Positions 19,273-34,326 of a stretch of DNA of 40,825 nucleotides are shown here, piece after piece. The translations under genes were made by a program, and so were the position numbers. The DNA comes from Pseudoflavonifractor sp. An44 (GTDB taxonomy: Bacteria; Bacillota; Clostridia; Oscillospirales; Oscillospiraceae): the NCBI RefSeq assembly GCF_002161675.1, contig NZ_NFIH01000024.1, positions 1-40,825 of the forward strand, in the 5' to 3' direction. How positions within the stretch are numbered: position 1 is the first letter of the stretch; each line of letters opens with the position of its first letter. The notes under the pieces are model-generated. The model searched no databases and was not told the origin of the DNA. It worked only from the letters and a program-made list of their open reading frames with translations.

Positions 19273-19540
19273 GTTAAATGCGTGGAACAGGACGAGTACC
19301 CAACTGTCCCCCACCAGAGAGCCGCTCACTTGGGTGGAAGAGCGGCAGGGCGGGCCTTGGGGAATATCACCTGGGAGCTGCAAACCCAACGGGCAAGTTT
19401 TGCCCCAGTAGGCTTTGCCGGGTTGGTCTCCGTTATTGGGACCCGTCGAGGGGTCTGTGCGTGGCACAGGCAACGAGAGTGGTACCGCAGAGGTTATTCA
19501 CACCTTTGTCTCTCATTTCAGAGGGACAAAGGTGTTTTTT
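19273..19540 (+). promoter_or_regulatory. T-box riboswitch, isoleucine-specific
   Basis: Stem I contains AGAGAGCCGCT and the matching AGCGGC. The specifier region reads GAATATCACC, with the codon ATC at 19366-19368, which fits tRNA-Ile and the ileS gene downstream. The T-box sequence GAGAGTGGTACCGC is at 19475-19488. The terminator CACCTTTGTC/GACAAAGGTG followed by TTTTTT lies at 19501-19540. Uncharged tRNA-Ile should favour the antiterminator and raise IleS. Confidence 0.92.
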
Positions 19541-19544
19541 ATTC

Positions 19545-19731
19545 GTTGAAAAAGGCAAAAGCCTTTTCCAACGGTGATTTACACCCTGCTGCGCGCAAAG
19601 TTCGTCCGCAAACATCGCGGCCGAATTCACACTTGCAGGGCGAGAAGTATTTTCTCCCGTGCGCATGTCCCGGGAGAAAATGATTTCAATTTTTTGCGCC
19701 TGAGAGGCGCAAACTCTGCGAGGCTTTTGAC
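19545..19731 (+). ncRNA. Four-hairpin structured element SE5, copy in the ileS leader
   Basis: Hairpins in order: P0 GTTGAAAAAGGC/GCCTTTTCCAAC (19545-19572); P1 CCCTGC/GCAGGG (19584-19640) enclosing P2 TTCG..CCGC/GCGG..CGAA (19601-19625); P3 an 11-bp stem (19649-19659 with 19671-19681) capped by the loop TGCGCATGTCC; P4 TTTGCGCC/GGCGCAAA (19693-19713); then a conserved tail CTCTGCGAGGCTTTTGAC. A second copy with other stem sequences but the same loop and tail lies before obgE. The element ends 45 nt before the ileS ATG. Confidence 0.7.
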
Positions 19732-19776
19732 ATCGTTTAAAATGAAATTCTATTATGACACAGGAGGAATCCCACC

Positions 19777-22584
19777 ATGGATTACAACAAGACCGTACAC
19801 CTCCCCCAGACCGACTTCCCCATGCGGGCGGGCCTTCCCAAGCGGGAGCCTGAGCTGCTCAACGGCAAGTGGGAGGTGGAGACCTATCACAAGCTGATGA
19901 AGAAGAACGAGGGCAAGCCCAAGTTTGTCCTCCACGACGGCCCTCCCTACGCCAACGGCCACATCCACATCGGCACCGCCCTGAACAAGATCCTCAAGGA
20001 CATCATCATCCGCTACAAGAACATGACCGGCTTCCAGGCCCCCTATGTCCCCGGCTGGGACACCCACGGCCTGCCCATCGAGTCCGCCATTTTGAAGGAC
20101 AAGAAGATCAAGCGGGACGAGCTCACCGACTCCGAGTTCCGGGACAAGTGCCGGGACTTCGCCCTGAACTTCGTGGACATCCAGCGCAGCGAGTTCCAGC
20201 GTTTGGGCGTCATCGGCGACTGGGAGAACCCCTACCTCACCCTTAGCCCTGTGTTTGAGGCCAAGCAGGTGGAGATTTTCGGCAAGATGGCCGAGAAGGG
20301 CTACATCTACAAGGGCATGAAGCCCGTGTACTGGTGCCCCCACGACCAGACCGCTCTGGCTGAGGCCGAGATCGAGTACGCCGACGACCCCTGCACCACC
20401 ATCTTCGTGAAGTTCCCCGTGAAGGACGACCAGGGCAAGCTTTCTGGCGTCACCGACCTGTCCAAGACCTACTTCGTCATCTGGACCACCACCCCCTGGA
20501 CCATCCCCGGCAACTACGCCATTTCCGTCAACCCCGACTTCGACTATGTGCTGCTGAGTGCTCCCAACGGCGAGGTGTATATCCTGGCGGAAGGCCTGGT
20601 GGAGTCCGTGTGCAAGGCCGCTGGCCTGGATCAGGATTCCTGCACCGTGCTGGCCACCTTCAAGGGCAGCGACTTCGAGCTGATGCGTGCCAAGCACCCC
20701 CTGTTCGACCGGGAGAGCGTCATCCTCTGCGGCGACCACGTGACCCTGGACGCCGGTACCGGCTGCGTCCACACCGCCCCCGGCTTCGGTGCGGACGACT
20801 TTAACATCTGCAAGGCCTACGACGATGCGGGCAAGACCCACATCGGCACCCCCGTGCCTGTCAACGCCAAGGGCGTCATGACCGACGAGCGGTACAACGG
20901 CCAGTTCTACGCCAAGGGCAACGACCTGGTGGTGGCCGACCTGGAGGCCGAGGGCTTCCTGCTGGCCAAGGAGAACATCGTCCACTCCTACCCCCACTGC
21001 TGGCGCTGCAAGAACCCCATCATCTACCGTGCCACCGAGCAGTGGTTCTGCTCCGTGGACGCCATCAAGGATACCGCTGTGAAGAGCTGCGACAACATCT
21101 CCTGGCATCCCTCCTGGGGCAAGGACCGCATGACCTCCATGATCAGCGAGCGCAACGACTGGTGCATCTCCCGTCAGCGCAAGTGGGGCGTGCCCATCCC
21201 CATCTTCTACTGCGACCAGTGCGGGGCCGACCTTGTCACCCCCGAGACCATCCAGCGTGTCTCCCAGCTGTTCCGGGAGTACGGGTCGAATGTCTGGTTT
21301 GAGAAGACCGCCGACGAGCTGGTGGAGGGTCTGGGCCTGAAGTGCCCCCACTGCGGTGGCGTCCACTTCTCCAAGGAGTCCGACATCATGGACGTGTGGT
21401 TCGACTCCGGCTCCACCCACGCCGCCGTGCTGGACGAGCGTCCCGAGCTGACCTTCCCCGCCGACGTGTACCTGGAGGGCGGCGACCAGTACCGTGGTTG
21501 GTTCCAGTCCTCCATGCTCACCTCCATCGCCGCCAAGGGTGTGGCCCCCTACAAGCAGATCATCACCCACGGCTGGACCGTGGACGGCGAGGGCAAGGCC
21601 ATGCACAAGTCCCTGGGCAATGCCGTGTCCCCCGACGAGGTCATCAAGGACTACGGCGCCGACATGCTGCGTCTGTGGGTGGCCTCCGCCGACTACACCC
21701 AGGACATGCGCATCTCCCCCGAGATTTTGAAGCAGCTCAGCCAGGCCTACCTGAAGATCCGCAACACCGCCCGCTACATGCTGGGCAACCTGGCCGGCTT
21801 CGACCCCAACGCCCCTGTGGCCGTGGCCGACATGATGGAGCTGGACCGCTGGGCCGTGCACCAGTTCAACAACCTGGTGGCCGCCTGCCGCGGGGCCTAT
21901 GAGCGCTACGAGTTCCACGCCGCCTACCGCGCCATCTACAACTTCTGCGTGGTGGAGATGTCCAACTTCTACCTGGATATCATCAAGGACCGCCTGTACT
22001 GTGGCGATGAGGCGGGCCGCCGCTCCGCTCAGACCGCCCTGTATATCATCGTGGACGGTATGACCCGGCTGCTGGCCCCCATCCTGGCCTTCACCAGCCA
22101 GGAGATTTGGGCTGCCATGCCCCACGCCTCTACCGACGACACCGAGTGCGTGCTCTTTAACGACATCCCCGCCGTCAATCCCGCCTACGCCATGACCGAG
22201 GCCGAGGACGAGAAGTGGAACCGCATCATTGCCCTGCGGGACGACGTGAACAAGGCTCTGGAGATCGCGAGAAGCGAGCAGGGCATCAAGAAGAGCACCG
22301 ACGCCGCTCTGTCCCTCACCTTCACCGCTGCCGCCTTCGAGCAGTTCCAGGCCATGAACCTCTCCGAGGCCGATCTGGCCACCCTGTGCATCGTCTCCCA
22401 GGTCACTGTGGCCCAGGGCGAAGGCCAGGGCTACCAGGGCGAGGAGTTCGAGGGCCTCACTGTGGCTGTCTCTCTGGCCGCTGGCGAGAAGTGCCCCCGC
22501 TGCTGGAACCACGACACCAGCATCGGCACCGATCACGGCCATGCCGAGCTGTGCGCTCGCTGCGCCGCTGTGCTGGGCGAGTAA
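19777..22584 (+). CDS. ileS: Isoleucyl-tRNA synthetase
   Basis: This 935-residue class I aminoacyl-tRNA synthetase has the HIGH-type motif HIHIG in PYANGHIHIGTALNKIL (about residues 58-74), HGLPIE, the CP1 editing domain, and a KMSKS-type loop reading AMHKSLGN (about residue 609). The M-x-K-S lysine is kept and histidine replaces the first serine. The C-terminus carries a zinc module (CPRCWNH ... CARC), as in bacterial type 1 IleS. ATG 19777 has ACAGGAGGAA upstream. It is controlled by the T-box in the leader and followed by its own terminator, so it is monocistronic. Confidence 0.96.
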   Translation: MDYNKTVHLPQTDFPMRAGLPKREPELLNGKWEVETYHKLMKKNEGKPKFVLHDGPPYANGHIHIGTALNKILKDIIIRYKNMTGFQAPYVPGWDTHGLPIESAILKDKKIKRDELTDSEFRDKCRDFALNFVDIQRSEFQRLGVIGDWENPYLTLSPVFEAKQVEIFGKMAEKGYIYKGMKPVYWCPHDQTALAEAEIEYADDPCTTIFVKFPVKDDQGKLSGVTDLSKTYFVIWTTTPWTIPGNYAISVNPDFDYVLLSAPNGEVYILAEGLVESVCKAAGLDQDSCTVLATFKGSDFELMRAKHPLFDRESVILCGDHVTLDAGTGCVHTAPGFGADDFNICKAYDDAGKTHIGTPVPVNAKGVMTDERYNGQFYAKGNDLVVADLEAEGFLLAKENIVHSYPHCWRCKNPIIYRATEQWFCSVDAIKDTAVKSCDNISWHPSWGKDRMTSMISERNDWCISRQRKWGVPIPIFYCDQCGADLVTPETIQRVSQLFREYGSNVWFEKTADELVEGLGLKCPHCGGVHFSKESDIMDVWFDSGSTHAAVLDERPELTFPADVYLEGGDQYRGWFQSSMLTSIAAKGVAPYKQIITHGWTVDGEGKAMHKSLGNAVSPDEVIKDYGADMLRLWVASADYTQDMRISPEILKQLSQAYLKIRNTARYMLGNLAGFDPNAPVAVADMMELDRWAVHQFNNLVAACRGAYERYEFHAAYRAIYNFCVVEMSNFYLDIIKDRLYCGDEAGRRSAQTALYIIVDGMTRLLAPILAFTSQEIWAAMPHASTDDTECVLFNDIPAVNPAYAMTEAEDEKWNRIIALRDDVNKALEIARSEQGIKKSTDAALSLTFTAAAFEQFQAMNLSEADLATLCIVSQVTVAQGEGQGYQGEEFEGLTVAVSLAAGEKCPRCWNHDTSIGTDHGHAELCARCAAVLGE

Positions 22585-22598
22585 TCCATCGCAATACC

Positions 22599-22638
22599 AA
22601 ACCCTCCGGGAAATTGTACAATTTCCCGGAGGGTTTTT
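22599..22638 (+). terminator. ileS terminator
   Basis: A long perfect palindrome with arms AACCCTCCGGGAAATTGT and its complement, ending in TTTTTC. It can act in both directions. Confidence 0.85.
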
Positions 22639-22747
22639 CTCTCTCGTCCACCCTTGGCCCTAAGGGGTTCATTATGGTATGCTGAACATACAAGAGAAAG
22701 CCTGTAAACTGCGCTCAAACGGCTGCACCAATAAGGAGGGATATCTC

Positions 22748-23725
22748 ATGAAAAAGGCAAGCATACGCAAATCTGCCCTTAAAATTGTGGCGGTGTTGGT
22801 GGTCCTGGTGGCGGTGGCCACCGCTGCGTTCTTCCGCTCCAAACCCATGCTGGACCCCGCCGATTCCCCCCGGATTTCCCTCATTACGGCCGACTACGAG
22901 AACGGCGGGGAGAGCTACCGCTCTACCATGGAGCAGACGGACATTTCCCAGAACTTGAACAACCAGCTGATTACCCTCTTTCAAGGAACCCAGATGCGAA
23001 ATGTCCGTTTCCTGCGCCCCCAGTCCTTCCGCATGGAGCCGGGCTCTGTGTATCTCAACGTCTGGGTGGAGACGGACCGTACCTCCATGCTGGTGAATCT
23101 CTCCACCAATTCCGACTACAATTCTGCCCAGTTTGGGGACACCCATTATGCCATTGTGAATGGCCCCGACCTGTACCAAAAGGTGTATGATCGGCTGTCC
23201 CCCCTCCTGGTGGCCCACGGCTCCCCTTGGGGCTCCACAGAGCCGCCCACCCCCACGCCAGCTCCCACGCCCACCATGACCCCGCAACCAGAGGAGCCAG
23301 AGGGCCCGCCCTCCCAACTGCCGGAGCGGGTATGGTCCTTCACCGACCCGGACCAGGTCAGCCAGGAGCGGTTTTCCTACTCCCAGGCGGAGCAGGACGC
23401 CGCTGTGGCTGCGGTGAGAAATGAGCTGGAACAAGAGGCGGAGCAGGAATATACCATCTCCCTCACCATCGGGGAAATCACTCCATCTCCCTCTGAGACG
23501 GCGTGGCAGTGGAAACACTATTTCTGCCCGGAGTCGGAACTGTTTGCCGACTGGACGCAAGAGGATATGCTCACCCGATTTATGGTGGTATCTGCCCAGT
23601 ATGATGTGGAGTATGACAACACCAAGACATTCATGAATTCGGGAAAGGTAACACAGAACTTTTTCCTCACCAAAGAGGACGGAGTCTGGAGCGTGTGGGA
23701 TCGGCAATCCCCCGATGTAACCTAA
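22748..23725 (+). CDS. Membrane-anchored protein of unknown function, tandem paralogue A
   Basis: This 325-residue protein starts with a basic N-terminus and one transmembrane helix (about residues 12-28). An extracellular domain follows (about 35-160) that is shared with the next gene, including AQFGDTHY and DLYQKVYDRLSPLLVAHGSP. Next come a Pro/Thr linker (PTPTPAPTPT, about 165-190) and a C-terminal region (about 190-325) with an EQEAEQEYTI stretch. No known family is recognised. ATG 22748 has AAGGAGGG upstream; an open frame further upstream lacks a ribosome site. It is probably surface-exposed. Confidence 0.8.
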   Translation: MKKASIRKSALKIVAVLVVLVAVATAAFFRSKPMLDPADSPRISLITADYENGGESYRSTMEQTDISQNLNNQLITLFQGTQMRNVRFLRPQSFRMEPGSVYLNVWVETDRTSMLVNLSTNSDYNSAQFGDTHYAIVNGPDLYQKVYDRLSPLLVAHGSPWGSTEPPTPTPAPTPTMTPQPEEPEGPPSQLPERVWSFTDPDQVSQERFSYSQAEQDAAVAAVRNELEQEAEQEYTISLTIGEITPSPSETAWQWKHYFCPESELFADWTQEDMLTRFMVVSAQYDVEYDNTKTFMNSGKVTQNFFLTKEDGVWSVWDRQSPDVT

Positions 23726-23819
23726 CGCCCATACAAGTGCATCAAGAAAAACATGTTGCCCCCAGAGAATCGTTCGAATCCAAATGCCTGTGAGCTGCAC
23801 AAGTAAGGAGGGGTATGAA

Positions 23820-25181
23820 ATGAAGCACACAGCAAACACGTGGAAAAAGCCACTGGGAATTGTGACGGTGTTGGTGGTCCTGGTAGCCGTGGCCGCCGCC
23901 GCGTTCTTCCGCTCCAAGCCCATGGTGGACCCCGCCGACACCCTCCAGGTGCGCTCCATCAGCGCCGACTATTGGAACGGCGGGGAGACCTATCACTGTG
24001 ACATCTCCCAGGAGAATATTCCCCAGAAATTGAGCCGTGATCTGGTGTCTCTCTTTCAGGGGTTCACCATCCGAAACACCCTCTTTCCCCGCCAAAACAC
24101 CTACACCGTGGAGCCGGACTCGGTGTACATCAGCATCCAGGTGGGGCTGGCTGAGGGGTCCATGCGGGTAAACCTGAGCACCAATTCCGCCTACACATCC
24201 GCCCAATTTGGGGACACCCATTACTCCATTGTGGACGGTCAGGACTTGTACCAGAAGGTATATGATCGGCTGTCCCCCCTCCTGGTGGCCCATGGCTCCC
24301 CTGGAGCCCCAGAGGGAGAGCCCAGTCCCACCCCAAGCCAGCTGCCCCAGACGGTGCCCTGGGAGGTACCTGAGCAGCCGTCGATGTCCTACGAGGAGTA
24401 TTTTGAGCAGGAGCGGGAGTATGACTTTGAGGACCTGGATTCTGCGTGGTTTTACGACCAGTGCGACTTTGAGTATCGGGACGGCGCTCTGTATCTGGTG
24501 GACAGCCAAAAAACCGGGGAGGCGCTGTGGAAGGTCTGGGACACGGACAACTTGGAGGTCAAGGCGGTGGATCCGGCGTGGATCTACGGCATCGTAGACG
24601 GCAAAACCCTCATCCGTATGGACTACAAAGGGAACCACCAGGAGACCCTCTTTGTGGATGACAGCGGCCTCATTTCCACCATGAACCGGGGCATTTCCAA
24701 CCCTCTGACTGTGGCGTATACCTATCGCTATGATGGAACGCCTGCGCCTGCCTGCATCCAGAACCCCCTGCCTCTGGCCGACCGCTCGGTGCTGTACTTC
24801 TGGGCTGGAGCGGAAGATGGGGACGGGGCGGCCCTGTACCGCCTGTATGTGCACGACGGACACACCGACGTGGTGTACCAGTATACCCAGAAGGAGCTGG
24901 AACAGTATCGCTTCCCCGACTGCCCGGAGCTGGAGGGCACCGGGCCCTACTACCGTATTTCTGTGCCGAACCCAGTGTCCAATGTGGAGGTGGGCTGGAC
25001 TGTGGGGAACCCGGAGTTTTTCCACCGCTTTGACGCAGAGATGCAAAATGAGTATACAAAGGTGACCGATACAGAACTTTTATATGAGAAACCCATGGAA
25101 TACGGCCTTCCCATGTTGTTTTCCTGCACGAAAAACATGTTGACGGGAGAATTCCAGCAAGTGGAACCCCGGTCCTACTAA
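23820..25181 (+). CDS. Membrane-anchored protein of unknown function, tandem paralogue B
   Basis: This 453-residue protein has the same N-terminal plan as its upstream neighbour: a membrane helix (about residues 12-27), FFRSKPM(V)DPAD, and the shared domain ending YDRLSPLLVAHGSP. Then comes a short Pro-rich linker (about 163-190). The C-terminal half (about 200-453) is unrelated to the neighbour and reads like a beta-rich sensor or propeller-type domain (repeated strand-turn patterns such as LYLVDSQ, TLIRMDYKG, LYRLYVHDG), but I cannot name it. ATG 23820 has AAGGAGGGG at 23804-23812. The leader also resembles that of paralogue A, so the duplication included the 5' region. Confidence 0.8.
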   Translation: MKHTANTWKKPLGIVTVLVVLVAVAAAAFFRSKPMVDPADTLQVRSISADYWNGGETYHCDISQENIPQKLSRDLVSLFQGFTIRNTLFPRQNTYTVEPDSVYISIQVGLAEGSMRVNLSTNSAYTSAQFGDTHYSIVDGQDLYQKVYDRLSPLLVAHGSPGAPEGEPSPTPSQLPQTVPWEVPEQPSMSYEEYFEQEREYDFEDLDSAWFYDQCDFEYRDGALYLVDSQKTGEALWKVWDTDNLEVKAVDPAWIYGIVDGKTLIRMDYKGNHQETLFVDDSGLISTMNRGISNPLTVAYTYRYDGTPAPACIQNPLPLADRSVLYFWAGAEDGDGAALYRLYVHDGHTDVVYQYTQKELEQYRFPDCPELEGTGPYYRISVPNPVSNVEVGWTVGNPEFFHRFDAEMQNEYTKVTDTELLYEKPMEYGLPMLFSCTKNMLTGEFQQVEPRSY

Positions 25182-25190
25182 AACCCATGA

Positions 25191-25234
25191 ACCCCCAGGA
25201 GCTCGCCATTTGGCGGGCTCCTGGGGGTCTTTTT
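25191..25234. terminator. Convergent terminator between paralogue B and the TetR gene
   Basis: ACCCCCAGGAGC pairs with GCTCCTGGGGGT around GGCG/CGCC, followed on the plus strand by CTTTTTTA. The T-run serves the plus-strand gene; the hairpin touches the end of the minus-strand TetR gene. Confidence 0.75.
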
Positions 25235-25785
25235 TATCGGTGGGTCACCCCGGCGATGAGGTCGTCGGTGCGCCGGGCCATGTCCTGGGGGGACTCGGGG
25301 CAGCCCCGGGACAGCCAGTCCTTGATGAGGCCCATACCCCCCGCCACGCAGAAGGTGTAGCGATAGGCCACATCCGGCTGGGTGCGCTGCAAGGGGGTGA
25401 GAATGTACTGGGAGAGCATCTCCTCAATGTGGTGGAGAAAGCCAATGTCCCCCCGGGGGCCCAGCAGGGCGGCGCAGATGTCCCGGTTGGCAAAGAGAAT
25501 GGAGAACACATCCTCCAAAAAGGCCAGGGTGTCCCCCTCAAACCGCCCGGTCAGCGTCTGCTCCATGGCGTGGCGAATCTGCTCATACAGCTCCTGCTCC
25601 ACACACTCCAGCATGTGGGGAATGTCCCGGTAGTGGAGATAGAAGGTGGAGCGGTTGATGTCCACCAAATCCACCAGTTCGGTGACCGTCACCTCGTTGA
25701 CGCTCTTCTCCCCCATCAGCTGGGCCAACCCCTGGCGCAGCTGGGCCCGGGTGCGCCGCACCCGTCGGTCTGGTTTCCGCTCCAT
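25234..25785 (-). CDS. TetR/AcrR-family transcriptional regulator
   Basis: This 183-residue protein has an N-terminal TetR helix-turn-helix: RRTRAQLRQGLAQLMGEK, then VTVTELVDLVDINRSTFYLHYRD. The C-terminal part resembles the TetR_C_7/YhgE-associated regulators (dhaS-like). It is transcribed away from a YhgE/Pip-type membrane protein and probably represses it. ATG 25785 was chosen for AGGAGGGG seven bases upstream; the longer frame to 25893 runs into the divergent promoter region. Confidence 0.85.
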   Translation of the reverse strand: MERKPDRRVRRTRAQLRQGLAQLMGEKSVNEVTVTELVDLVDINRSTFYLHYRDIPHMLECVEQELYEQIRHAMEQTLTGRFEGDTLAFLEDVFSILFANRDICAALLGPRGDIGFLHHIEEMLSQYILTPLQRTQPDVAYRYTFCVAGGMGLIKDWLSRGCPESPQDMARRTDDLIAGVTHR

Positions 25786-25864
25786 CCCAAGCCCCTCCTG
25801 TCTTGTAAATCTTTTTTGAACAATGGACATTCTGTCGTCACTCTGTCTATTAATCCACAGAACG

Positions 25865-25960
25865 CCGACCAATTGTCGGTTGTGTTGTCTCATCCCCTCC
25901 AGTATAATGCCTCTTGTAAAAAATCACAATACCGAGATGTATAGTAGACACTATGTCTAC
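25865..25960. promoter_or_regulatory. Divergent control region with TetR-type palindromes
   Basis: GTAGACACTATGTCTAC (25944-25960) is a perfect palindrome with 7-bp arms, overlapping a TATAGT -10 box (25940-25945) of the membrane-protein gene; TTGTAA at 25914-25919 may be a poorly spaced -35. A second palindrome CCGACCAATTGTCGG lies at 25865-25879 towards the TetR side. The first fits a repressor site. Confidence 0.65.
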
Positions 25961-25985
25961 AAAACCTGGAAGGAAGGGTTTGACG

Positions 25986-28268
25986 TTGAAACGACAAGAA
26001 TGGAAGCGTTTGCTGCACAATCCGCTGCTGTTGGTGGTGATGGTGGCCATTATCGCCATTCCCACCATCTACACCACCCTGTTTTTGGGCTCCATGTGGG
26101 ACCCCTACGGGAATGTGGAGCATTTGCCGGTGGCGGTGGTAAATCTGGACCAGCCGGTGACGGTGGAGGGGGAGACCTATGACATTGGGCAGTCCCTGGT
26201 GGACAACCTGAAGGAGGACGCCTCCCTGGACTTCCACTTCATGGGCCAGGAGGAGGCCCAGGAGGGGCTGGTGGACGGCACCTACTACATGGTCATCACC
26301 ATCCCGGAGGACTTCTCCCAGCGGGCCGCCTCCATCACCGAGGCCCACCCCCAGACCATGGAGCTGAAGTACGAGACCAACCCCGGCACCAACTACATCG
26401 CCTCCAAGCTCAGTGAGAGCGCCATGAAGGAGATGGAGCTGGGGGTGCGGGAGGAAGTGACCCGTACCTACGCCACCACCATGCTGGAGCAGATTGGCGT
26501 GGTGGGAGACGGCATGACCCAGGCCGCTGACGGCAGCGGGGAGCTGAAAGACGGGGCAAACACCCTCACCCAGGGAGCCCAGTCCCTCACCGACTATCTG
26601 GCGCAGCTGGCAGGGAGCTCCCTCACCTTCGTGGACGGCTCCCAGCGGCTGAGCCAGGGCCTGGGCGAGTATCTGGCGGGGGTAACCCAGGTGGCAGAGG
26701 GCAGCGGAGCCCTCAACGACGGCGCCAAGCAGCTGGAGGACGGGCTGGGCCAGCTCCAGCAGGCCACCCAGCCCCTGACCCAAGGGGTGGAGCAGCTGCA
26801 AGCAGGAGCCCAGAATTTGGCCCAGGGAGCCGGTCAGGCAGCGTCCAGCAGCGGCACCCTATCCCAGGGCGCCGCCCAGGTGGATGAGAGCCTGGGGGCC
26901 CTCCTGGCGGGCCTCCAGACCCTGCAAAGCCAGACCGCCGCTCTGCCCCAGAACGCCCAGGCCCTGGCCCAAGGAGCCAAGCAGTTGGAGCAGGGCCTAC
27001 AAGGGCTGTCTCTGGCCATCCAGAGCGGCCAGGTGAGCACGCAGCAGCTGCAAGCCCTGGTGGGCCAGCTGCAACAGGGGGCGGACCAGCTGTCCCAGGG
27101 GCTGGGCCAGCTCAACCAGCAGGCCCCTGCCCTCACCCAGGGCATTGCTCAGGCCGCCCAGGGGGCCGGACAGCTGAAAAACCAGGGCACCGCTCCCCTG
27201 CGCTCCGGCGCTGCCCAGCTGCAACAGGGCCTCGACACTCTGGCCCAGGGCAGTGAGACGCTGTCCCAGGGCGTGACCCAGATGCAGGGCCAGCTTCCCG
27301 CCCTCACCCAGGGGGTGGACAAGCTGTATCAGGGCGCCGCCCAGCTCCACCAGGGCACCCAGAGTCTGGTGGACGGCGCTGGCCAGCTCATGGACAACAA
27401 GGCCCAGCTGACGGAGGGTATGGACGCCCTCACCCAGGGCTCGGTGCAGATTCAGGACGCCGCCGGGCAGCTGCACCAGGGGGCTCAGACCCTCACCGAC
27501 GGGGCAAAGGCCCTGGAGGACGGAGCGGCCACCCTCCAGGACAAGCTGGCCGAGGGCGCTCAGGAGATTGCCGACACCAACACGGGAGACGAGGTGGCGG
27601 ACATGATGGCCGCCCCGGTGGACACCCAGGAGAGCCAGCTCACCCAGGTGCCCAACAACGGCCACGGCATGGCCCCCTACATGATGTCGGTGGCCCTGTG
27701 GGTGGGCTGCATCGCCTTTAGCCTGATGTATCCCCTGACCCAGTACAGCGGCGAGCTGAAAAGCGGCTTTGCCTGGTGGCGGAGCAAGGCCTCGGTGCTG
27801 TACACCGTGGCCATTGCGGAGGCCCTGGTGATGCTGGGCAGCCTCCACCTGTTCAACGGGTTCCAGCCCGTGGACTGGGGCCGCACGGTGCTGGTGGCCC
27901 TGGTGGCCGCCCTCACCTTCATGTCGGTGATGTACTTCTTCACCTGCCTGATGGGCAAGGTGGGCAGCTTCTTAATGCTTATCTTCATGGTACTCCAGCT
28001 GGCGGGCTCGGTGGGCACCTATCCCCTGGAACTGTCCGGCTCCTTCGTCCCCGCCCTCAACGGCTGGGTGCCCTTCACCTACACCGTGCGGGCCTTCCGC
28101 AGCGCCATTGCCGGAGGCCAGGACATCACGGGATGCCTGGTGTATCTGGGGGTGTGGTTTGTGGTGTTCACCGCCCTGACGCTGGTGGTGTTCCACGTGC
28201 GCACCCGCCGCATCCGCCGGGGGCAGCCCACCCTCATGGTGTGGCTGGAAGAGCACAGTCTGGCATAA
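25986..28268 (+). CDS. YhgE/Pip-type membrane protein with heptad L..G repeats
   Basis: About 760 residues. It has one N-terminal membrane helix (LLLVVMVAIIAIPTIYTTLF) followed by SMWDPYG, the hallmark of YhgE/Pip proteins. A long extracellular part (about residues 160-540) carries many short repeats of the type QGA.QL..G, and the C-terminus has about five more helices of ABC-2-like type. Relatives include the lactococcal phage-infection protein and type VII secretion accessory proteins; the cellular role here is unknown. The ATG at 25953 falls inside the operator palindrome and has no ribosome site. GGAAGGAAGGG at 25968-25978 points to TTG 25986, or TTG 25980, as the true start. The TetR gene is divergent and presumably controls it. 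Confidence 0.8.
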   Translation: MKRQEWKRLLHNPLLLVVMVAIIAIPTIYTTLFLGSMWDPYGNVEHLPVAVVNLDQPVTVEGETYDIGQSLVDNLKEDASLDFHFMGQEEAQEGLVDGTYYMVITIPEDFSQRAASITEAHPQTMELKYETNPGTNYIASKLSESAMKEMELGVREEVTRTYATTMLEQIGVVGDGMTQAADGSGELKDGANTLTQGAQSLTDYLAQLAGSSLTFVDGSQRLSQGLGEYLAGVTQVAEGSGALNDGAKQLEDGLGQLQQATQPLTQGVEQLQAGAQNLAQGAGQAASSSGTLSQGAAQVDESLGALLAGLQTLQSQTAALPQNAQALAQGAKQLEQGLQGLSLAIQSGQVSTQQLQALVGQLQQGADQLSQGLGQLNQQAPALTQGIAQAAQGAGQLKNQGTAPLRSGAAQLQQGLDTLAQGSETLSQGVTQMQGQLPALTQGVDKLYQGAAQLHQGTQSLVDGAGQLMDNKAQLTEGMDALTQGSVQIQDAAGQLHQGAQTLTDGAKALEDGAATLQDKLAEGAQEIADTNTGDEVADMMAAPVDTQESQLTQVPNNGHGMAPYMMSVALWVGCIAFSLMYPLTQYSGELKSGFAWWRSKASVLYTVAIAEALVMLGSLHLFNGFQPVDWGRTVLVALVAALTFMSVMYFFTCLMGKVGSFLMLIFMVLQLAGSVGTYPLELSGSFVPALNGWVPFTYTVRAFRSAIAGGQDITGCLVYLGVWFVVFTALTLVVFHVRTRRIRRGQPTLMVWLEEHSLA

Positions 28269-28278
28269 TTGAACCGAT

Positions 28279-28311
28279 AAAAAGCCCCGGGATGGCAATC
28301 CCGGGGCTTTT
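28279..28311 (+). terminator. Terminator of the YhgE/Pip gene
   Basis: AAAAGCCCCGGGAT pairs with ATCCCGGGGCTTTT around a 4-nt loop; the T-run is part of the stem. Confidence 0.8.
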
Positions 28312-28348
28312 GGGCGTATTCTGACTTCCTAATCATCTGCGGTGTAGG

Positions 28349-28890
28349 CTTGGCAGCCTGGTTTTACGCTCCGCTGGGCCCGATTTCTCCCCGATGAGAA
28401 ATCGGGGAAAGAATCGCCAAAGGCGGGGCCTTCCCCCGCCTTGTGGAATCCACCCCGCGGTACGAATGCACCTGCGTCCTCCTGGTTTCGGCCCTGGTCC
28501 TGGATGGGTCACATAGATGGCGTAGAAATTCTACGGAAAATGCCTGCTTCTCTGTGTGGTCGGCCTTCTATTGCCTGGGCTTTACCCTGGTGTGCAACTG
28601 TTCCCAGTTGCCGGGGGCCTGGCTCCCGGCGGCGGGAATGCCGCTTCTCCAGGGTAGGCCCGGACATGGAAACCGCCCAGCTGTAGGGGCAGCTGCCCAA
28701 GGCAGCCTGGTGTGGTGGCACGGCTAGGCGCCACAGCAAGGGTGACGGGCCGAATTTAGACTTGACGCAGGCACCGCCTCGTACCCAAAGGGAGGTCCTT
28801 AGGGGGGAACGCCCTAAGCGGGTTTTGGTTTCTTTTGACCGGGCAAAAGAAACCCCCAGCGGGGAGCGTCCCCACCAGGCTGGCAAGCCG
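28349..28890 (+). repeat. Long dispersed repeat LR1, copy 4
   Basis: Left hairpin CCCGATTTCTC/GAGAAATCGGG (28379-28406), central hairpin CTTAGGG/CCCTAAG (28798-28818), and right hairpin GGTTTCTTTTG/CAAAAGAAACC (28827-28854). The terminal inverted repeats are at about 28349-28378 and 28855-28890. SR3 is not inserted. Confidence 0.85.
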
Positions 28891-28942
28891 GAACCAAGCC
28901 GGTGAGAAGGTCAATCTTCCCCCTTTTGGAACCAAAAAGCGC

Positions 28943-28975
28943 AAAAAAAGGGCTCTGCCGAAGCAGAGCCCTTTG
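28943..28975 (-). terminator. gap terminator
   Basis: On the minus strand AAGGGCTCTGC, loop TTCG, GCAGAGCCCTT, followed by TTTTT. It is a classic tetraloop terminator. Confidence 0.9.
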
Positions 28976-28986
28976 AAATGGTTTTC

Positions 28987-30009
<1,023 letters not shown>

Positions 30010-30043
30010 TTATAAAATTGGATGATCGCGTTTGCGCAAGGCT

Positions 30044-30049
30044 ATTATA
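30044..30049 (-). promoter_or_regulatory. -10 box of the gap promoter
   Basis: TATAAT on the minus strand, 46 bp before the gap start codon. No convincing -35 is seen at the right distance. The rest of 30050-30289 is A+T-rich intergenic sequence in which I recognise no further feature. Confidence 0.5.
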
Positions 30050-30289
30050 CATCACATTCCAGCCAAATGGAAGGGGGTTGTGAAAAATTTTTCAAAGTTT
30101 CTTTGCCCCAGGCAGCACAGGAACCCTCTGGCTGCAAAAAGCCGGAAAAATCCTCCATATGGCAGAAACTCGGGCCAAAAAAGAGCGGTTGAACCGGCAG
30201 CAACCGCGAAAATCCGGGGCAAAACCGCCAAATTCTCCAGACAAATCACGTCAAATAATCCAAAAAATTTGTAACATCCTGGGCCCTGC

Positions 30290-30318
30290 TTGAAAGATAT
30301 GCACACGCATGATATGAT
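30290..30318 (+). promoter_or_regulatory. Promoter of the lipoprotein gene
   Basis: TTGAAA (30290-30295), 17 bp, TATGAT (30313-30318). Confidence 0.7.
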
Positions 30319-30374
30319 GGAACCAAAAAGCGCAGCTATGCGCCCAAGAGAGACGAGGAAAGGAGTGATGAACC

Positions 30375-31010
30375 ATGAAACACAGATGGATGGCATTGCC
30401 TCTGGCCTTAGGACTGACTCTGACCCTGGCCCTGACTGCATGCAGCAGCAGCGACCCCAAGGAGAAATTGGTGGGCACCTGGTCTGGTCAGGTGGATGTG
30501 ATGGAGCAGGTTGTGGAAAGAATGCGTCTGACCGCTCCTGAAATTGCCGATGAACTGGGCATGGAGAACTTCTATATCCCCCTGGAGATGGAGTTCCGGG
30601 ACGACAACACCTATATCATGACGGTGGACCAGGAGAAGCTGGACGAGAGCATGGATGCGCTGATTCAGAAGTCGGTGGATACCATCATGGTATACATGGA
30701 GCAGATGCTCAAGGAGCAGGGCATCACCGACATGACGGTGGACGAGGTCCTGGCCCAGTCCGGCATGGACCGGGAGAGCTTCACCGACTTGATGGAACAG
30801 AGCATGGGCAATCTGAGCTCCTCCGTAGTCCAGCAGATTCAGACCGAGGGCCAGTACCGGCTGGAGGGGAATCGGATGTACACCTCCGATGACAAGGACA
30901 CGGAGCCGGGCAGCGATGGGGCCACCCCCTACACTTTGGACGGCGACAAGTTAAATATGGATTTCAGCAACGTCAGTCTGGGTGAAGTGACCTTCACCCG
31001 TGGCGGCTGA
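30375..31010 (+). CDS. Putative lipoprotein of unknown function
   Basis: This 211-residue protein has a signal peptide with lipobox LTAC (cysteine about residue 23), followed by SSSDPKEKLVGTWSG. The LVGTW start and the end pattern GQYRLEGNRMYTSDD ... LDGDKLNM resemble small lipocalin-like beta proteins common in Clostridia. The middle (about 80-150) is rich in acidic and methionine-containing helices. It should be anchored to the outer face of the membrane. AAAGGAGTG lies nine bases before the ATG. Confidence 0.8.
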   Translation: MKHRWMALPLALGLTLTLALTACSSSDPKEKLVGTWSGQVDVMEQVVERMRLTAPEIADELGMENFYIPLEMEFRDDNTYIMTVDQEKLDESMDALIQKSVDTIMVYMEQMLKEQGITDMTVDEVLAQSGMDRESFTDLMEQSMGNLSSSVVQQIQTEGQYRLEGNRMYTSDDKDTEPGSDGATPYTLDGDKLNMDFSNVSLGEVTFTRGG

Positions 31011-31023
31011 ACCCACATACCCC

Positions 31024-31054
31024 GGGCGGGGGGAGCGGTTTGCTCCCCCCGCCC
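31024..31054 (+). terminator. Hairpin between the lipoprotein and ClC genes
   Basis: GGGCGGGGGGAGC pairs with GCTCCCCCCGCCC around GGTTT. It is very stable but not followed by a T-run; the next promoter starts immediately after it. Confidence 0.6.
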
Positions 31055-31083
31055 TTGACAGTGTAGGGAGGGGGGAATATAAT
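31055..31083 (+). promoter_or_regulatory. Consensus promoter of the ClC gene
   Basis: TTGACA (31055-31060), exactly 17 bp, TATAAT (31078-31083): a perfect vegetative consensus, predicted to be strong. Confidence 0.85.
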
Positions 31084-31119
31084 CGAAATCACCAATGTAA
31101 CCGTAAAGGGCGGGAGGAT

Positions 31120-32385
31120 ATGAGCGAAAAAGCGAGGGATTTCTGGGGCCGGATCAGCCCCACGGCGGGGGCCTGGGTCCACTGGACCGTGTTGGCGGCC
31201 CTCACGGGTGTGGTATGCGGGGCGGCGGGGTCCGCCTTTTCTCATGCCATCACTCTGGTGACCGCATGGCGGGGGCAGCACCCCTGGCTGCTGTTGTGTA
31301 TGCCCCTGGCAGGCCTGGCCATTGTGTGGCTGTACCAGGTCTGTGGCATGGAAAATGACAGCGGCACCAACCAGATCATCGCCAGCGTACGCTCCGGCCA
31401 GCGGCCACCCTTGCGCCTGGCCCCCCTCATCTTTATCGGCTCGGTGCTCACCCACCTCACCGGCGGCAGTGCGGGCCGGGAGGGAGCGGCCCTGCAAATT
31501 GGTGGCAGTCTGGCCTGCCAGGTGGGCCAGCGGGTGCACCTGGGGGAACGCCAGATGAATGTGGAGGTCATGTGCGGCATGAGCGGCCTGTTTGCCGCCC
31601 TGTTTGGCACCCCACTCACCGCCACGGTGTTTGCCATGGAGGTGGTGAGCGTGGGCATCGTCCACTACTCCGCCTTTTTCCCCTGTCTGCTCACCGCCCT
31701 GGTGTCCACGGGGGTCACCGTCCTGCTGGGGGTGGAAGGGGAGCACTACACCCTGGACGCCATTCCCACCCTGGGCGCGGCGTCTCTGGCCCAGATTGGG
31801 GTGCTGGGCGTGGGGTGCGCCCTGCTGGCCATGACCTTCTGCGTGGTGGTGCACCAGACCGGGCACTGGTACGCCCACACCTTCCGCAATCCCTATCTGA
31901 GGGCCGTGGTGGGCGGCGTGCTGGTGGTGACCATCAGCCTCCTGGAGGGCAGCGGCGACTACAACGGGGCAGGGGGCCACATCATCGCCCTGGCGGTGGA
32001 TGAGGGCACCGTGCATGTGCCCTGGGCCTTTGCCTTGAAACTGCTGCTCACCGCCCTCACCCTGGGGGCGGGCTACCGGGGCGGCGAGATCGTACCCACC
32101 TTCTTTGTGGGGGCCACCTTCGGCTGTGCCGTGGCCCCGCTGCTGGGGGTAGACCCGGGCTTTGGGGCGGCGGTGTGTATGATCGCACTCTTTTGTGGCG
32201 TGGTGAACTGCCCCCTGGCCAGCATCTTTTTGAGTGTGGAGCTGTTCGGCAGTGAGGGGCTTCTGTTCTTCGCCCTGGCCTGTGCCCTCAGCTACCTGCT
32301 CAGCGGCAAGTTCTCGTTGTACTCCAGCCAGAAGATCGTCTATTCCAAGCTGGAACCCCGGTTTATTGACGAACATGCACACTAA
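31120..32385 (+). CDS. ClC-family chloride channel/transporter
   Basis: This 421-residue polytopic membrane protein carries the ClC selectivity motifs in variant form: NDSGTNQI near residue 78, GGSAGREGAALQIGG near 117-131 (GREGP in E. coli ClcA, keeping the gating glutamate) and GGEIVPTFFVGA near 320. It likely exchanges chloride, or another halide, for protons. It has no C-terminal CBS domains. ATG 31120 has GGGAGG at 31112-31117; the longer frame overlaps the promoter and is rejected. Confidence 0.88.
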   Translation: MSEKARDFWGRISPTAGAWVHWTVLAALTGVVCGAAGSAFSHAITLVTAWRGQHPWLLLCMPLAGLAIVWLYQVCGMENDSGTNQIIASVRSGQRPPLRLAPLIFIGSVLTHLTGGSAGREGAALQIGGSLACQVGQRVHLGERQMNVEVMCGMSGLFAALFGTPLTATVFAMEVVSVGIVHYSAFFPCLLTALVSTGVTVLLGVEGEHYTLDAIPTLGAASLAQIGVLGVGCALLAMTFCVVVHQTGHWYAHTFRNPYLRAVVGGVLVVTISLLEGSGDYNGAGGHIIALAVDEGTVHVPWAFALKLLLTALTLGAGYRGGEIVPTFFVGATFGCAVAPLLGVDPGFGAAVCMIALFCGVVNCPLASIFLSVELFGSEGLLFFALACALSYLLSGKFSLYSSQKIVYSKLEPRFIDEHAH

Positions 32386-32422
32386 AAAACACCCTGGAAG
32401 CCATCGCTTCCAGGGTGTTTTT
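32384..32422. terminator. Bidirectional terminator between ClC and obgE
   Basis: AAAAAACACCCTGGAAG pairs with CTTCCAGGGTGTTTTT. T-runs are present on both strands; it serves the two convergent genes. Confidence 0.88.
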
Positions 32423-32423
32423 C

Positions 32424-33707
32424 TCACTTCTGATACTCGAATTCCAGATTGTACAGGCACACCAGGTCGCCGTCGGTGACGCCCTTGGCCTCCATCTGGT
32501 CGAAGACGCCCGCTTCCCGCAGCCGCTTGTCGAACCAGTTGCGGCTCTCGTAGTCGGAGAAGTTGACGTTGGCCATAAGCTGGCGCAGCCAGGGCCCGTC
32601 CACCAGCCAGGTGCCGTCGTCGTCCCGGGTGATCTCCAGGGGGGCGGAGGTGTCCACCTCGGGGGGACGCTCCACAAAGGTGGGCTCGAACACCAGGATG
32701 GGGGGGAGGTGGGCCAGCTCGTCGGCGGCAGCGTACATCAGCTCTTTGGTGCCCTGGTGGGTGGCGGCGGACATCTCAAAGAGACGGCAGCCCTTGGCCT
32801 CCACGTGGGCCCGCAGCCGCTCCAGCAGCTCGGGGTCCTCCATCACGTCCACCTTGTTGGCAGCCACCAGCATTTTGCGGCTAGCCAGCTCGGGGGACCA
32901 CTGCTCCAGCTCGGTGCAGATGGTGTCGAAGTCCTCCACCGGGTCCCGGCCCTCGCTGCCAGACACGTCCACCACGTGGATGAGCAGGCGGCAGCGGTCA
33001 ATGTGGCGCAAAAAGTCGTGGCCCAGGCCAGCGCCCTCGGCGGCGCCCTCAATGATGCCAGGGATGTCGGCCAGCACGAAGGAGCGGCCCTCCTCCATGG
33101 GCACCACGCCCAGGTTGGGGAAGAGGGTGGTGAAGTGGTAGTTGGCGATCTTGGGCTGGGCTCGGGTGACCACGCTCAAGAGGGTGGACTTGCCCACGTT
33201 GGGGAAGCCCACCAAACCCACATCGGCCAGCAGCTTCAATTCCAAAATCACGTCCCGCTCCTGCCCGGGCAGGCCGGCCTTGGCAAACCGGGGCACCTGG
33301 CGGGTGGGGGTGGCAAAGTGCTGGTTGCCCCAGCCGCCCTTGCCGCCCTTGGCCAGCACAAAGGGCTTGTCATCGGACATGTCGCAGATGATTTCCTTGG
33401 TCTCGGCGTCCCGCACCACGGTGCCACGAGGCACCTTGATGACCAGGTCCGCCCCGTCCTTGCCGGTGCAGCGCTTGCCGCTGCCGTTCATGCCGGTTTC
33501 GGCCACATACTTGCGCTTATAGCGGAAGTCCATGAGGGTGGACATGTGGGGGTCCACGGTGAGGACGATGTTGCCGCCCCGTCCGCCGTCGCCGCCGTCG
33601 GGACCGCCAGCGGCCACGTATTTCTCCCGGTGGAAGGAGACGGCGCCGCCGCCGCCCGCCCCGGCCCGCACCAGGATTCGGGCGGTATCAATGAATTGAT
33701 TGGCCAT
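32424..33707 (-). CDS. obgE: Obg-family GTPase (ribosome assembly)
   Basis: This 427-residue protein has the glycine-rich Obg domain (ILVRAGAGGGGAVSFHREK onward), the GTPase domain with GFPNVGKST (about residue 165), the switch region TTLFPNLG, DIPGIIEGA and NKVD, and a C-terminal OCT domain as in Gram-positive CgtA (about residues 350-427). It acts in 50S subunit maturation and stress signalling. ATG 33707 is preceded by GGAGGTG. It lies downstream of rplU-prp-rpmA, but a terminator and the SE5 element intervene, so it probably has separate control. Confidence 0.95.
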   Translation of the reverse strand: MANQFIDTARILVRAGAGGGGAVSFHREKYVAAGGPDGGDGGRGGNIVLTVDPHMSTLMDFRYKRKYVAETGMNGSGKRCTGKDGADLVIKVPRGTVVRDAETKEIICDMSDDKPFVLAKGGKGGWGNQHFATPTRQVPRFAKAGLPGQERDVILELKLLADVGLVGFPNVGKSTLLSVVTRAQPKIANYHFTTLFPNLGVVPMEEGRSFVLADIPGIIEGAAEGAGLGHDFLRHIDRCRLLIHVVDVSGSEGRDPVEDFDTICTELEQWSPELASRKMLVAANKVDVMEDPELLERLRAHVEAKGCRLFEMSAATHQGTKELMYAAADELAHLPPILVFEPTFVERPPEVDTSAPLEITRDDDGTWLVDGPWLRQLMANVNFSDYESRNWFDKRLREAGVFDQMEAKGVTDGDLVCLYNLEFEYQK

Positions 33708-33802
33708 GGTAGGCACCTCCATTTCGAAAAAAGTGAATAACGAATAATGAATAATGAAGAAGTATGGTGTGCCTGCGGCACAGATTTCGATTGAGCGCCC
33801 AG

Positions 33803-33991
33803 GTCAAAAAGCCCTCGGCAGAGTTTCCCCGCCTCCAGGCGGGGAAATAAATTAAAATCACGTCTTTTCCCAGGACATGCGCATGGGAAAAGACACTTCT
33901 GGAGCCCGCCAGTGTGGAATTGGGTCGCCCTTTGACCCAATTATGCATGCAGCGGGCTGCAAGCTCCCACAAAATGCGTGCATTTTGTGGG
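33803..33991 (-). ncRNA. Four-hairpin structured element SE5, copy in the obgE leader
   Basis: Read in the obgE direction: P0 CCCACAAAATG/CATTTTGTGGG (33991-33966); P1 GCCCGC/GCGGGC (33957-33904) enclosing P2 AATTGGGT/ACCCAATT (33942-33918); P3 an 11-bp stem (33894-33884 with 33872-33862) with loop TGCGCATGTCC; P4 TTTCCCCGCC/GGCGGGGAAA (33847-33824); and tail CTCTGCCGAGGGCTTTTTGAC in conserved form. The order, spacing and total length match the ileS copy (189 versus 187 nt), although every stem has a different sequence. It ends 95 nt before the obgE ATG. Confidence 0.7.
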
Positions 33992-33996
33992 ATTAC

Positions 33997-34034
33997 AAAA
34001 ACGTCCCGGACAAGAGCTATGTCCGGGACGTTTT
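33997..34034 (-). terminator. Terminator of the rplU-prp-rpmA operon
   Basis: On the minus strand AAAACGTCCCGGAC pairs with GTCCGGGACGTTTT around a short loop, ending in TTTTTG. Confidence 0.88.
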
Positions 34035-34041
34035 AACAGCA

Positions 34042-34326
34042 TTACTGAGCGATCTCGTACACGGAGACCTTCTTGCGGTCCTTGCCCATGCGCTCGAACT
34101 TCACCTTGCCGTCCACCAGGGCGAACAGGGTGTCGTCGGAGCCCTTACCCACGTTGGTGCCGGGGTGGATGTGGCTGCCGCGCTGACGAACCAGAATGTT
34201 GCCGGCCAGAACGAACTGACCATCGGCACGCTTCACGCCCAGGCGCTTGGACTCGGAGTCACGGCCGTTCTTGGTGGAGCCGCCGCCCTTCTTGTGAGCG
34301 AAGAGCTGGATGTTGATCTTCAGCAT
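34042..34326 (-). CDS. rpmA: 50S ribosomal protein L27 with cleavable N-terminal extension
   Basis: This 94-residue protein starts [17 protein letters not shown]. In Firmicutes the segment before AHKKGGG is removed after the Phe by the protease Prp, so that the mature L27 tail can reach the peptidyl-transferase centre. The cleavage motif is intact here (F9/A10) and the prp gene lies directly upstream. It is the last gene of the operon. Confidence 0.97.

Follow-up and report, generated by a model that had tools for sequence, protein, structure and literature searches.

The window, that is the whole 40,825-nt stretch of contig NZ_NFIH01000024.1 (assembly GCF_002161675.1) from the 2.75-Mb genome of Pseudoflavonifractor sp. 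An44, labelled G000, carries two copies of a four-hairpin element, SE5, one before ileS and the other before obgE. This arrangement raises the question whether SE5 is a regulatory RNA of these genes; the initial annotation had proposed either a cis-acting leader RNA, recognised through the loop of its hairpin P3, or a structured mobile repeat with a preference for leaders. Comparison of SE5 copies within and between genomes indicates, with a probability of roughly 0.83, that the element is a non-autonomous DNA transposon, of the type known as miniature inverted-repeat transposable element (MITE), probably moved by transposases of the IS1182 family and inserting at terminator hairpins; recent insertions often have the hairpin in full on either side. 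The two window copies are ordinary members of the SE5 family and not a dedicated switch for ileS and obgE, because they belong to a widespread mobile element which inserts at terminators. They are laid out as follows:

19545..19731, plus strand: SE5 copy 1, before ileS; covariance-model match at 19580-19725 (E 4.7e-26)
19545-19572: P0 of copy 1
19584-19589 with 19635-19640: P1 of copy 1, enclosing P2 (about 19598-19628)
19649-19681: P3 of copy 1, with its loop at 19660-19670
19693-19713: P4 of copy 1
19714-19731: tail of copy 1
33803..33991, minus strand: SE5 copy 2, before obgE (locus L129); covariance-model match at 33812-33961 (E 1.7e-43)
33991-33966: P0 of copy 2
33883-33873: P3 loop of copy 2, whose tail reaches 33803

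Both elements were found as initially described, with the layout P0-P1(P2)-P3-P4-tail: their stems pair perfectly or nearly so, the P3 loop TGCGCATGTCC is identical in the two copies, and the A/T-rich spacer and the conserved tail are common to both. Folding of copies 1 and 2, compared with 200 dinucleotide shuffles, gave z values of -5.55 and -5.31. Neither copy reaches a gathering score in Rfam 15, copy 1 producing only sub-threshold matches at a lax threshold, and the novelty, which the initial annotation would have given up for a known Rfam class, is not removed by this search. Similarly, no description of SE5, of an Oscillospiraceae repeat of this kind or of an IS1182 MITE was found in open-licence PMC full texts.

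That the resemblance exceeds chance was borne out by a search for the exact P3 loop, which occurs 31 times in the genome, against none for the reversed control. Twenty-seven of these occurrences were judged to be real copies; the other four (L005, L007, L009, L016), located in coding-like sequence, were attributed to chance and dropped before the first alignment. After removal of L024, which has lost P1, the seed alignment was composed of 26 copies, all chosen by the P3 loop, and contained 90 cells in which both sides of a pair are changed, against a shuffled mean of 19. The covariance model built on them, a search that the initial annotation had proposed, detected 49 matches in the genome at E<=0.1, 48 of them at E<=1e-16 and one at E=2e-6, with downstream genes on either strand.

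The same model was used to scan 200 genomes sampled from the taxonomic family of the host, scoring at most 15 candidates per genome. Matches were found in 104 of the 200 genomes and in 68 of 106 genera, and one genome, G103, holds 30 of them. Across genera, in an alignment fitted to the covariance model, the stems are largely rewritten, yet 96.6% of the cells pair, and double changes number 348, where shuffling gives a mean of 95. The matches listed in a public scan include Flavonifractor, Pseudoflavonifractor, Intestinimonas, Oscillibacter and Sporobacter termitidis, along with a few in unrelated phyla which, by appearance, look like chance. In addition, 27 IMG/VR stretches (L480-L506) match the loop-tail pattern, being either prophage-borne copies or chance, and one element (L420:4830-5033) contains three P3-P4 units of about 71 bp in tandem.

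The borders of full-length SE5 copies are short terminal inverted repeats, CAG-NN-TGTC-RAA, located beside intrinsic terminators. Full copies in G103 have the left end CAGCGTGTCGAA and the right end GACAG[AT]CTG, which as reverse complement reads CAGTCTGTCAAA or CAGACTGTCAAA; in this genome the right pattern was found at 9 places and the left one at 23, while reversed controls gave 0. The repeats are lost or decayed in many old copies, and many copies of the window genome are without full ends, either lost or never present. A closing stem of an RNA, considered in place of terminal inverted repeats, was rejected on the grounds that the middle two positions of the end motif are unpaired and that the variants swap sides between subfamilies.

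Outside the two ends, the same hairpin is found on both sides in 36 of 59 copies (24 of 30 in G103, 4 of 6 in G129, 5 of 7 in G163 and 3 of 16 in G219), a duplicate being called at a score of at least 16; L247, cut by a contig end, was left out before the count, and all 59 swapped-flank controls scored 12 or less. The duplicated hairpins are 20-41 nt long, with 7-17 pairs each, and nearly every site has a sequence of its own; among the 36 duplications, the left copy begins in an A-rich stretch in 25 and the right copy finishes in a T-rich stretch in 27. Between them lie 198-264 bp, which sets the size of a complete SE5 at about 200-265 bp and leaves no room for a transposase gene. A fixed length is the usual expectation for the target duplications of DDE transposons; in SE5 the length is that of whichever hairpin was struck, over dozens of insertions, which provides natural evidence for an insertion directed by structure and duplicating the stem-loop. 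Seven of a further 24 copies, taken from 24 genomes, also score at least 16, one of them already counted (L094 = L244), and the same anatomy was read by eye in cultured named strains, such as S. termitidis (L389) and P. phocaeensis (L436).

Some sites depart from this pattern. At L176, L251 and L402 the loop is inverted between the left and right hairpins, so that one reads as the other's reverse complement, which gives the impression of a flipped palindrome, and the copy at L153 is flanked by a 26-nt direct duplication which is not a clear palindrome. At L147:6602-7007 (G000:C29) two SE5 copies stand in tandem, with copies of one hairpin between and outside them, apparently the result of a second insertion into an already duplicated terminator.

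Comparison of orthologous sites revealed the state of some loci without the element. The L145 site of G000, where the hairpin is present on both sides of SE5, corresponds in G006 to a single terminator hairpin, the identity of the flanks being 95 and 92%. The site is likewise empty in G001, G020, G018 and G010; in G024 it holds an independent insertion (L326) in the opposite orientation. The ileS site is empty in G006, G020, G001 and G018, in which ileS is 97-100% identical over its first 424 nt and a short leader containing the ribosome-binding site comes after the same T-box terminator. G019 is also without the element there, and G024 has other extra sequence. The covariance model found no SE5 in the loci fetched from relatives at the L145 and ileS sites, among which L326 of G024 was not included. 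Since close relatives have an empty site, SE5 inserted recently after the T-box terminator of ileS; the obgE copy goes back further, with orthologous copies in G006 (L270) and G010 (L277). At three intergenic sites the element lies in opposite orientation at the same place in two species (L288/L128, L293/L132, L283/L161), which suggests repeated strikes on one target. The genus of G103 was also compared, but its loci are only about 70-80% identical and gave no clean empty site.

The genomic location of the copies, relative to genes predicted by a simple gene caller, is related to upstream genes rather than to downstream ones. In the window genome, 37 of 49 copies lie in sense with the gene before them, while the strand of the downstream gene is random (25 vs 23); one copy (L154) overlaps a gene prediction. 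In G103 this orientation to the upstream gene holds for 26 of the 28 determinable copies, whereas G219 has no sense bias (3 '++' vs 7 '--'). A divergent arrangement of the neighbouring genes is found for 4 of 48 copies, against 31 of 92 element-free gaps of the same genome, overlapping loci being counted once (Fisher p 0.0009); over all genomes, orthologues included, it is found for 6 of 157 copies, against the same 31 of 92 (Fisher p 3e-10). Because of the upstream sense bias and of this scarcity between divergent genes, SE5 is tied to gene 3' ends, not to leaders. The idea of a mobile repeat is retained from the initial annotation, with the terminator hairpin taking the place of the leader as target; the scatter in both orientations, there named as the sign of a plain repeat, is random relative to the downstream gene, but relative to the 3' end of the upstream gene it departs from randomness in two genomes, though not in G219.

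These data bear directly on the proposal of a cis-acting leader RNA controlling essential translation genes through the P3 loop. Both window copies are in sense with the genes that follow, at the distances originally given (45 nt from the start codon of ileS, and 95 nt from that of obgE if the start is at 33707), and the loop is kept across stem changes in the 26 seed copies, which were themselves chosen by that loop. Nevertheless, the random strand of downstream genes, the absence of the ileS copy from four close relatives that keep the T-box terminator, the dozens of copies at other sites and the pairing exceptions of P1, P3, P4 and P0, which point to the other strand, make this proposal hardly credible. 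No fixed position or orientation before one class of downstream genes was found in the copies examined.

Placement at 3' ends suits better a domesticated element, retained, whatever its origin, for shaping or protecting the 3' ends of upstream mRNAs, a role also proposed for REP-like repeats. The sense bias of the window genome and of G103 speaks in its favour, but G219 does not share it and, at one site (L271 vs L159), the element seems to have been deleted in G000, where only the left half of P0 is left before the gene's own terminator. This explanation, to which the conservation data described below are also relevant, is rather unlikely.

The transposon reading calls for a source of transposase, and candidates were found within the IS1182 family. 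The locus L251 of G000 contains an IS1182-family transposase gene (385 bits), bordered by the SE5 end motif and by nearly the same 35-nt hairpin stretch on both sides, and L336, from another genus (G155), contains an IS1182 transposase gene with matching ends and an identical 31-nt hairpin on both sides; at L334 an IS1182 gene has matching ends and a hairpin on one side only. Identity among the proteins of L251, L336 and L334 is about 71-72%, and none of them exceeds 50% against the remaining full-length IS1182 proteins examined. From the short motif that they share with SE5, these genes may be taken as a clade of autonomous relatives with SE5 ends, and because the clade combines the same ends with, in two of its members, hairpin duplication, SE5 fits an IS1182-type MITE using the duplicating outcome.

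It is quite unlikely, by comparison, that SE5 is moved by another transposase which shares with IS1182 nothing but the target preference. Several carriers in which no IS1182 genes were found would be in keeping with this alternative, as would the shortness of the shared end motif and the fact that IS1182 was the sole transposase family searched; it is opposed by the L251/L334/L336 clade, all of whose members have the SE5 end motif and two of the three the hairpin duplication.

According to the IS1182-type MITE model, the transposase would recognise the hairpin of an intrinsic terminator by its shape, and the ends of the element would be joined to the palindrome at its two feet, one on each strand. 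Repair would then leave one full hairpin on each side of SE5, which would become part of the 3' untranslated region of the upstream gene, or of the spacer. Upstream termination would be preserved because the copy of the hairpin which keeps the T run lies behind the element.

Several observations weigh against the model. No movement of SE5 was observed, and the hairpin duplication is missing in 13 of the 16 G219 copies and in both window copies. In the window genome, only 6 of 50 rows score at least 16 and two of these, L124 and L153, do not involve hairpins; of the swapped controls of this test, 6 per copy, most score 13 or less and a few 20-50, probably where the swapped flank contains a similar element end. 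As for the helper, the end motif is found on both sides in only 3 of the 21 IS1182 loci examined, no IS1182 match was obtained in G163, G219 and G129, and G103 has only a remnant of 48 bits. IS1182 matches at E<=1e-20 are present in only 38 of the 200 family genomes, and the helper is therefore missing from many carriers. Finally, 12 of 13 orthologous pairs have an element core better kept than its flanks, of which a dead copy of a purely selfish element would have no need, and the model does not account for the retention of about 130 nt of internal stems across many genera. The reading that suits SE5 best is that of an IS1182-type MITE whose target duplication is unusual, and its conserved core is the most novel feature.

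The constraint on the core was evaluated in two ways. In the 13 orthologous pairs, its identity is 97.2%, against 91.8% for the flanks. These pairs exclude L134/L266 (a 54-nt deletion), L138/L281, L284/L298 and the sites with inverted copies; they are not independent, L142 being used four times, and gaps are not counted. Recent exchange between species could contribute to the contrast. In addition, the two arms of P0 change together at fixed sites, namely in the obgE copy (L129 of G000 vs L270 of G006), where both arms are changed between species whose flanks are 97-98% identical, and at the L142 site in G018 and G020. Since the core is better kept than the flanks and the P0 arms change in concert, it seems to be under some constraint in place. 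Both results favour a domesticated 3'-end element as well; the requirements of transposition, the shaping of 3' ends or a product of the minus strand may each be the role of the core.

The second evaluation concerned the strand. Stems covary almost only as Watson-Crick pairs, but the exceptions are asymmetric: P1, P3 and P4 show 61 A-C cells against 7 G-T (165 copies), in every gene arrangement with any exceptions, and P0 shows 12 against 3, plus 17 other mismatches. P2 and the outermost pair of P3 were kept outside the main count because the alignment is unsure there; P2 alone has 27 G-T and 21 A-C cells, with no strand bias, and the four helices together have 37 G-T and 82 A-C (166 copies). 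Before the removal of spurious rows, the P1, P3 and P4 count was 61 A-C and 10 G-T (166 copies); three spurious matches were dropped (L148:2903, L152:4880 and L147:2965), the first two of which held 3 of the 10 G-T cells. Five tRNAs, used as a control, gave 9 G-T and 0 A-C over 105 pairs. The raw count of 61 is inflated, because copies share ancestry and are not independent: as distinct pair positions in P1, P3 and P4, the figures become 22 A-C against 10 G-T (p 0.05), or 22 against 7 without the spurious rows. An A-C cell on the sense strand is a G-T pair on the other, and therefore any selection behind the asymmetry would act on the minus strand. The exceptions thus point to a constraint on that strand, P2 excepted; the strand folded in the initial annotation is probably not the constrained one as far as P1, P3, P4 and P0 are concerned, while P2 gives no such sign.

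For a domesticated 3'-end element this is a difficulty, since the wobble pairs of those four stems avoid the strand carried by the upstream mRNA. The same excess of A-C cells would instead suit a mobile non-coding gene, in which the minus strand is a structured RNA, or a folded single-stranded DNA, travelling as cargo of the transposon; the left hairpin, followed by a T run on the minus strand, could end such an RNA. Yet P2 does not share the bias, minus-strand wobble is rare (about 1.4% of cells), the 61 cells are reduced as described when distinct positions are counted, and neither window copy has a match in Rfam. Moreover, no promoter-like site was found on either strand in the two full copies scanned (L201 and L102), and compact copies have only about 13 nt between the core and the right end. 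A gene of this kind appears doubtful, to about the same degree as domestication. A broader combination is possible, if tentative: the terminator would be a landing pad, where insertion is nearly harmless because the entire terminator is duplicated, for a conserved folded core spread through the family, whose working form would be the minus strand, as mobile non-coding RNA or folded single-stranded DNA, kept by paired changes at fixed sites and perhaps endowed with a 3'-end function of its own.

Several known systems resemble the proposed IS1182-type MITE in part. REP/RAYT and elements derived from IS200/IS605 are intergenic palindromes moved by a separate transposase; they are not known to have terminal inverted repeats or a target duplication, while SE5 has both. 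Group IIC introns insert beside intrinsic terminators, but the terminator is duplicated around SE5, and the window copies score below the gathering score of every Rfam intron; the anatomy of SE5 was the ground for dismissing a group II intron or another retroelement, and intron proteins were not searched for.

The closest comparison is offered by IS1272 and TnSha1, IS1182-family elements of staphylococci, which are reported to target terminator hairpins but to delete them (PMC4923244, PMC5678879). SE5 shares with them a palindromic target, often a terminator, picked by structure and not by sequence, as well as variable target lengths and short terminal inverted repeats; unlike them, it duplicates the whole hairpin, which there is deleted or replaced without duplication, lacks a transposase and contains a conserved multi-hairpin core. 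The IS1272-type outcome, with the target hairpin deleted, was not found in the 36 of 59 copies with a duplicate, the only ones to which this statement applies. Duplication of the whole stem-loop was modelled by Wan et al. as a possible alternative, 'pathway b' (PMC5678879). IS1182 is also reported, in a genome survey, among the families over-represented between convergent genes (PMC9208149). Like BOX, RUP and SPRITE of pneumococcus and other bacterial MITEs, SE5 is short, multi-copy, mostly intergenic, structured and non-autonomous (PMC10969869); it is set apart from them, by descriptions and not by sequences, through the duplication of whole terminators, its presence in 68 of 106 genera and the paired changes of its stems.

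The MITE model would explain a structured repeat found in about half of the sampled genomes of the family, and gives warning that covarying, RNA-like leaders in this family can be copies of a transposon. It would also make SE5 a test bed for the ways in which mobile DNA finds safe sites.

Within the window, each copy lies directly behind an intrinsic terminator, that of the ileS T-box leader for copy 1 and that of rpmA for copy 2. The features surrounding the copies are:

19274..19516, plus strand: ileS T-box leader (RF00230, 105.7 bits, gathering score 93), upstream of copy 1
19500..19540, plus strand: intrinsic terminator of the ileS T-box leader, with the hairpin at 19500-19535 followed by a T run; adjoins copy 1
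19727..19756, plus strand: promoter-like TTGACA-18-TATTAT, a consensus match only (11 of 12 consensus bases)
19777..22584, plus strand: ileS, downstream of copy 1 (TIGR00392, 952 bits)
32424..33722, minus strand: obgE, downstream of copy 2 (NF008955, 551 bits), with a likely start at 33707
33997..34030, minus strand: intrinsic terminator behind rpmA, with the hairpin at 34030-34002 followed by a T run; adjoins copy 2
34042-34326, minus strand: rpmA (TIGR00062)

The rpmA terminator was read from the sequence; its hairpin is not reported by the automatic terminator scan, which covers loops of 3-8 only. In the promoter-like sequence before ileS, TTGACA is supplied by the right end of the SE5 copy and TATTAT is formed with adjacent sequence, at a spacing of 18 nt; by eye, the combination is absent from the relatives with an empty site. 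Being located downstream of the T-box terminator, it could allow transcription of ileS outside T-box control, and the transposon may in this way have handed a T-box gene an unregulated promoter. Elsewhere in the window, positions 668-719 match SpF59_sRNA, a Streptococcus small RNA (sRNA) of Rfam, at 71.5 bits.

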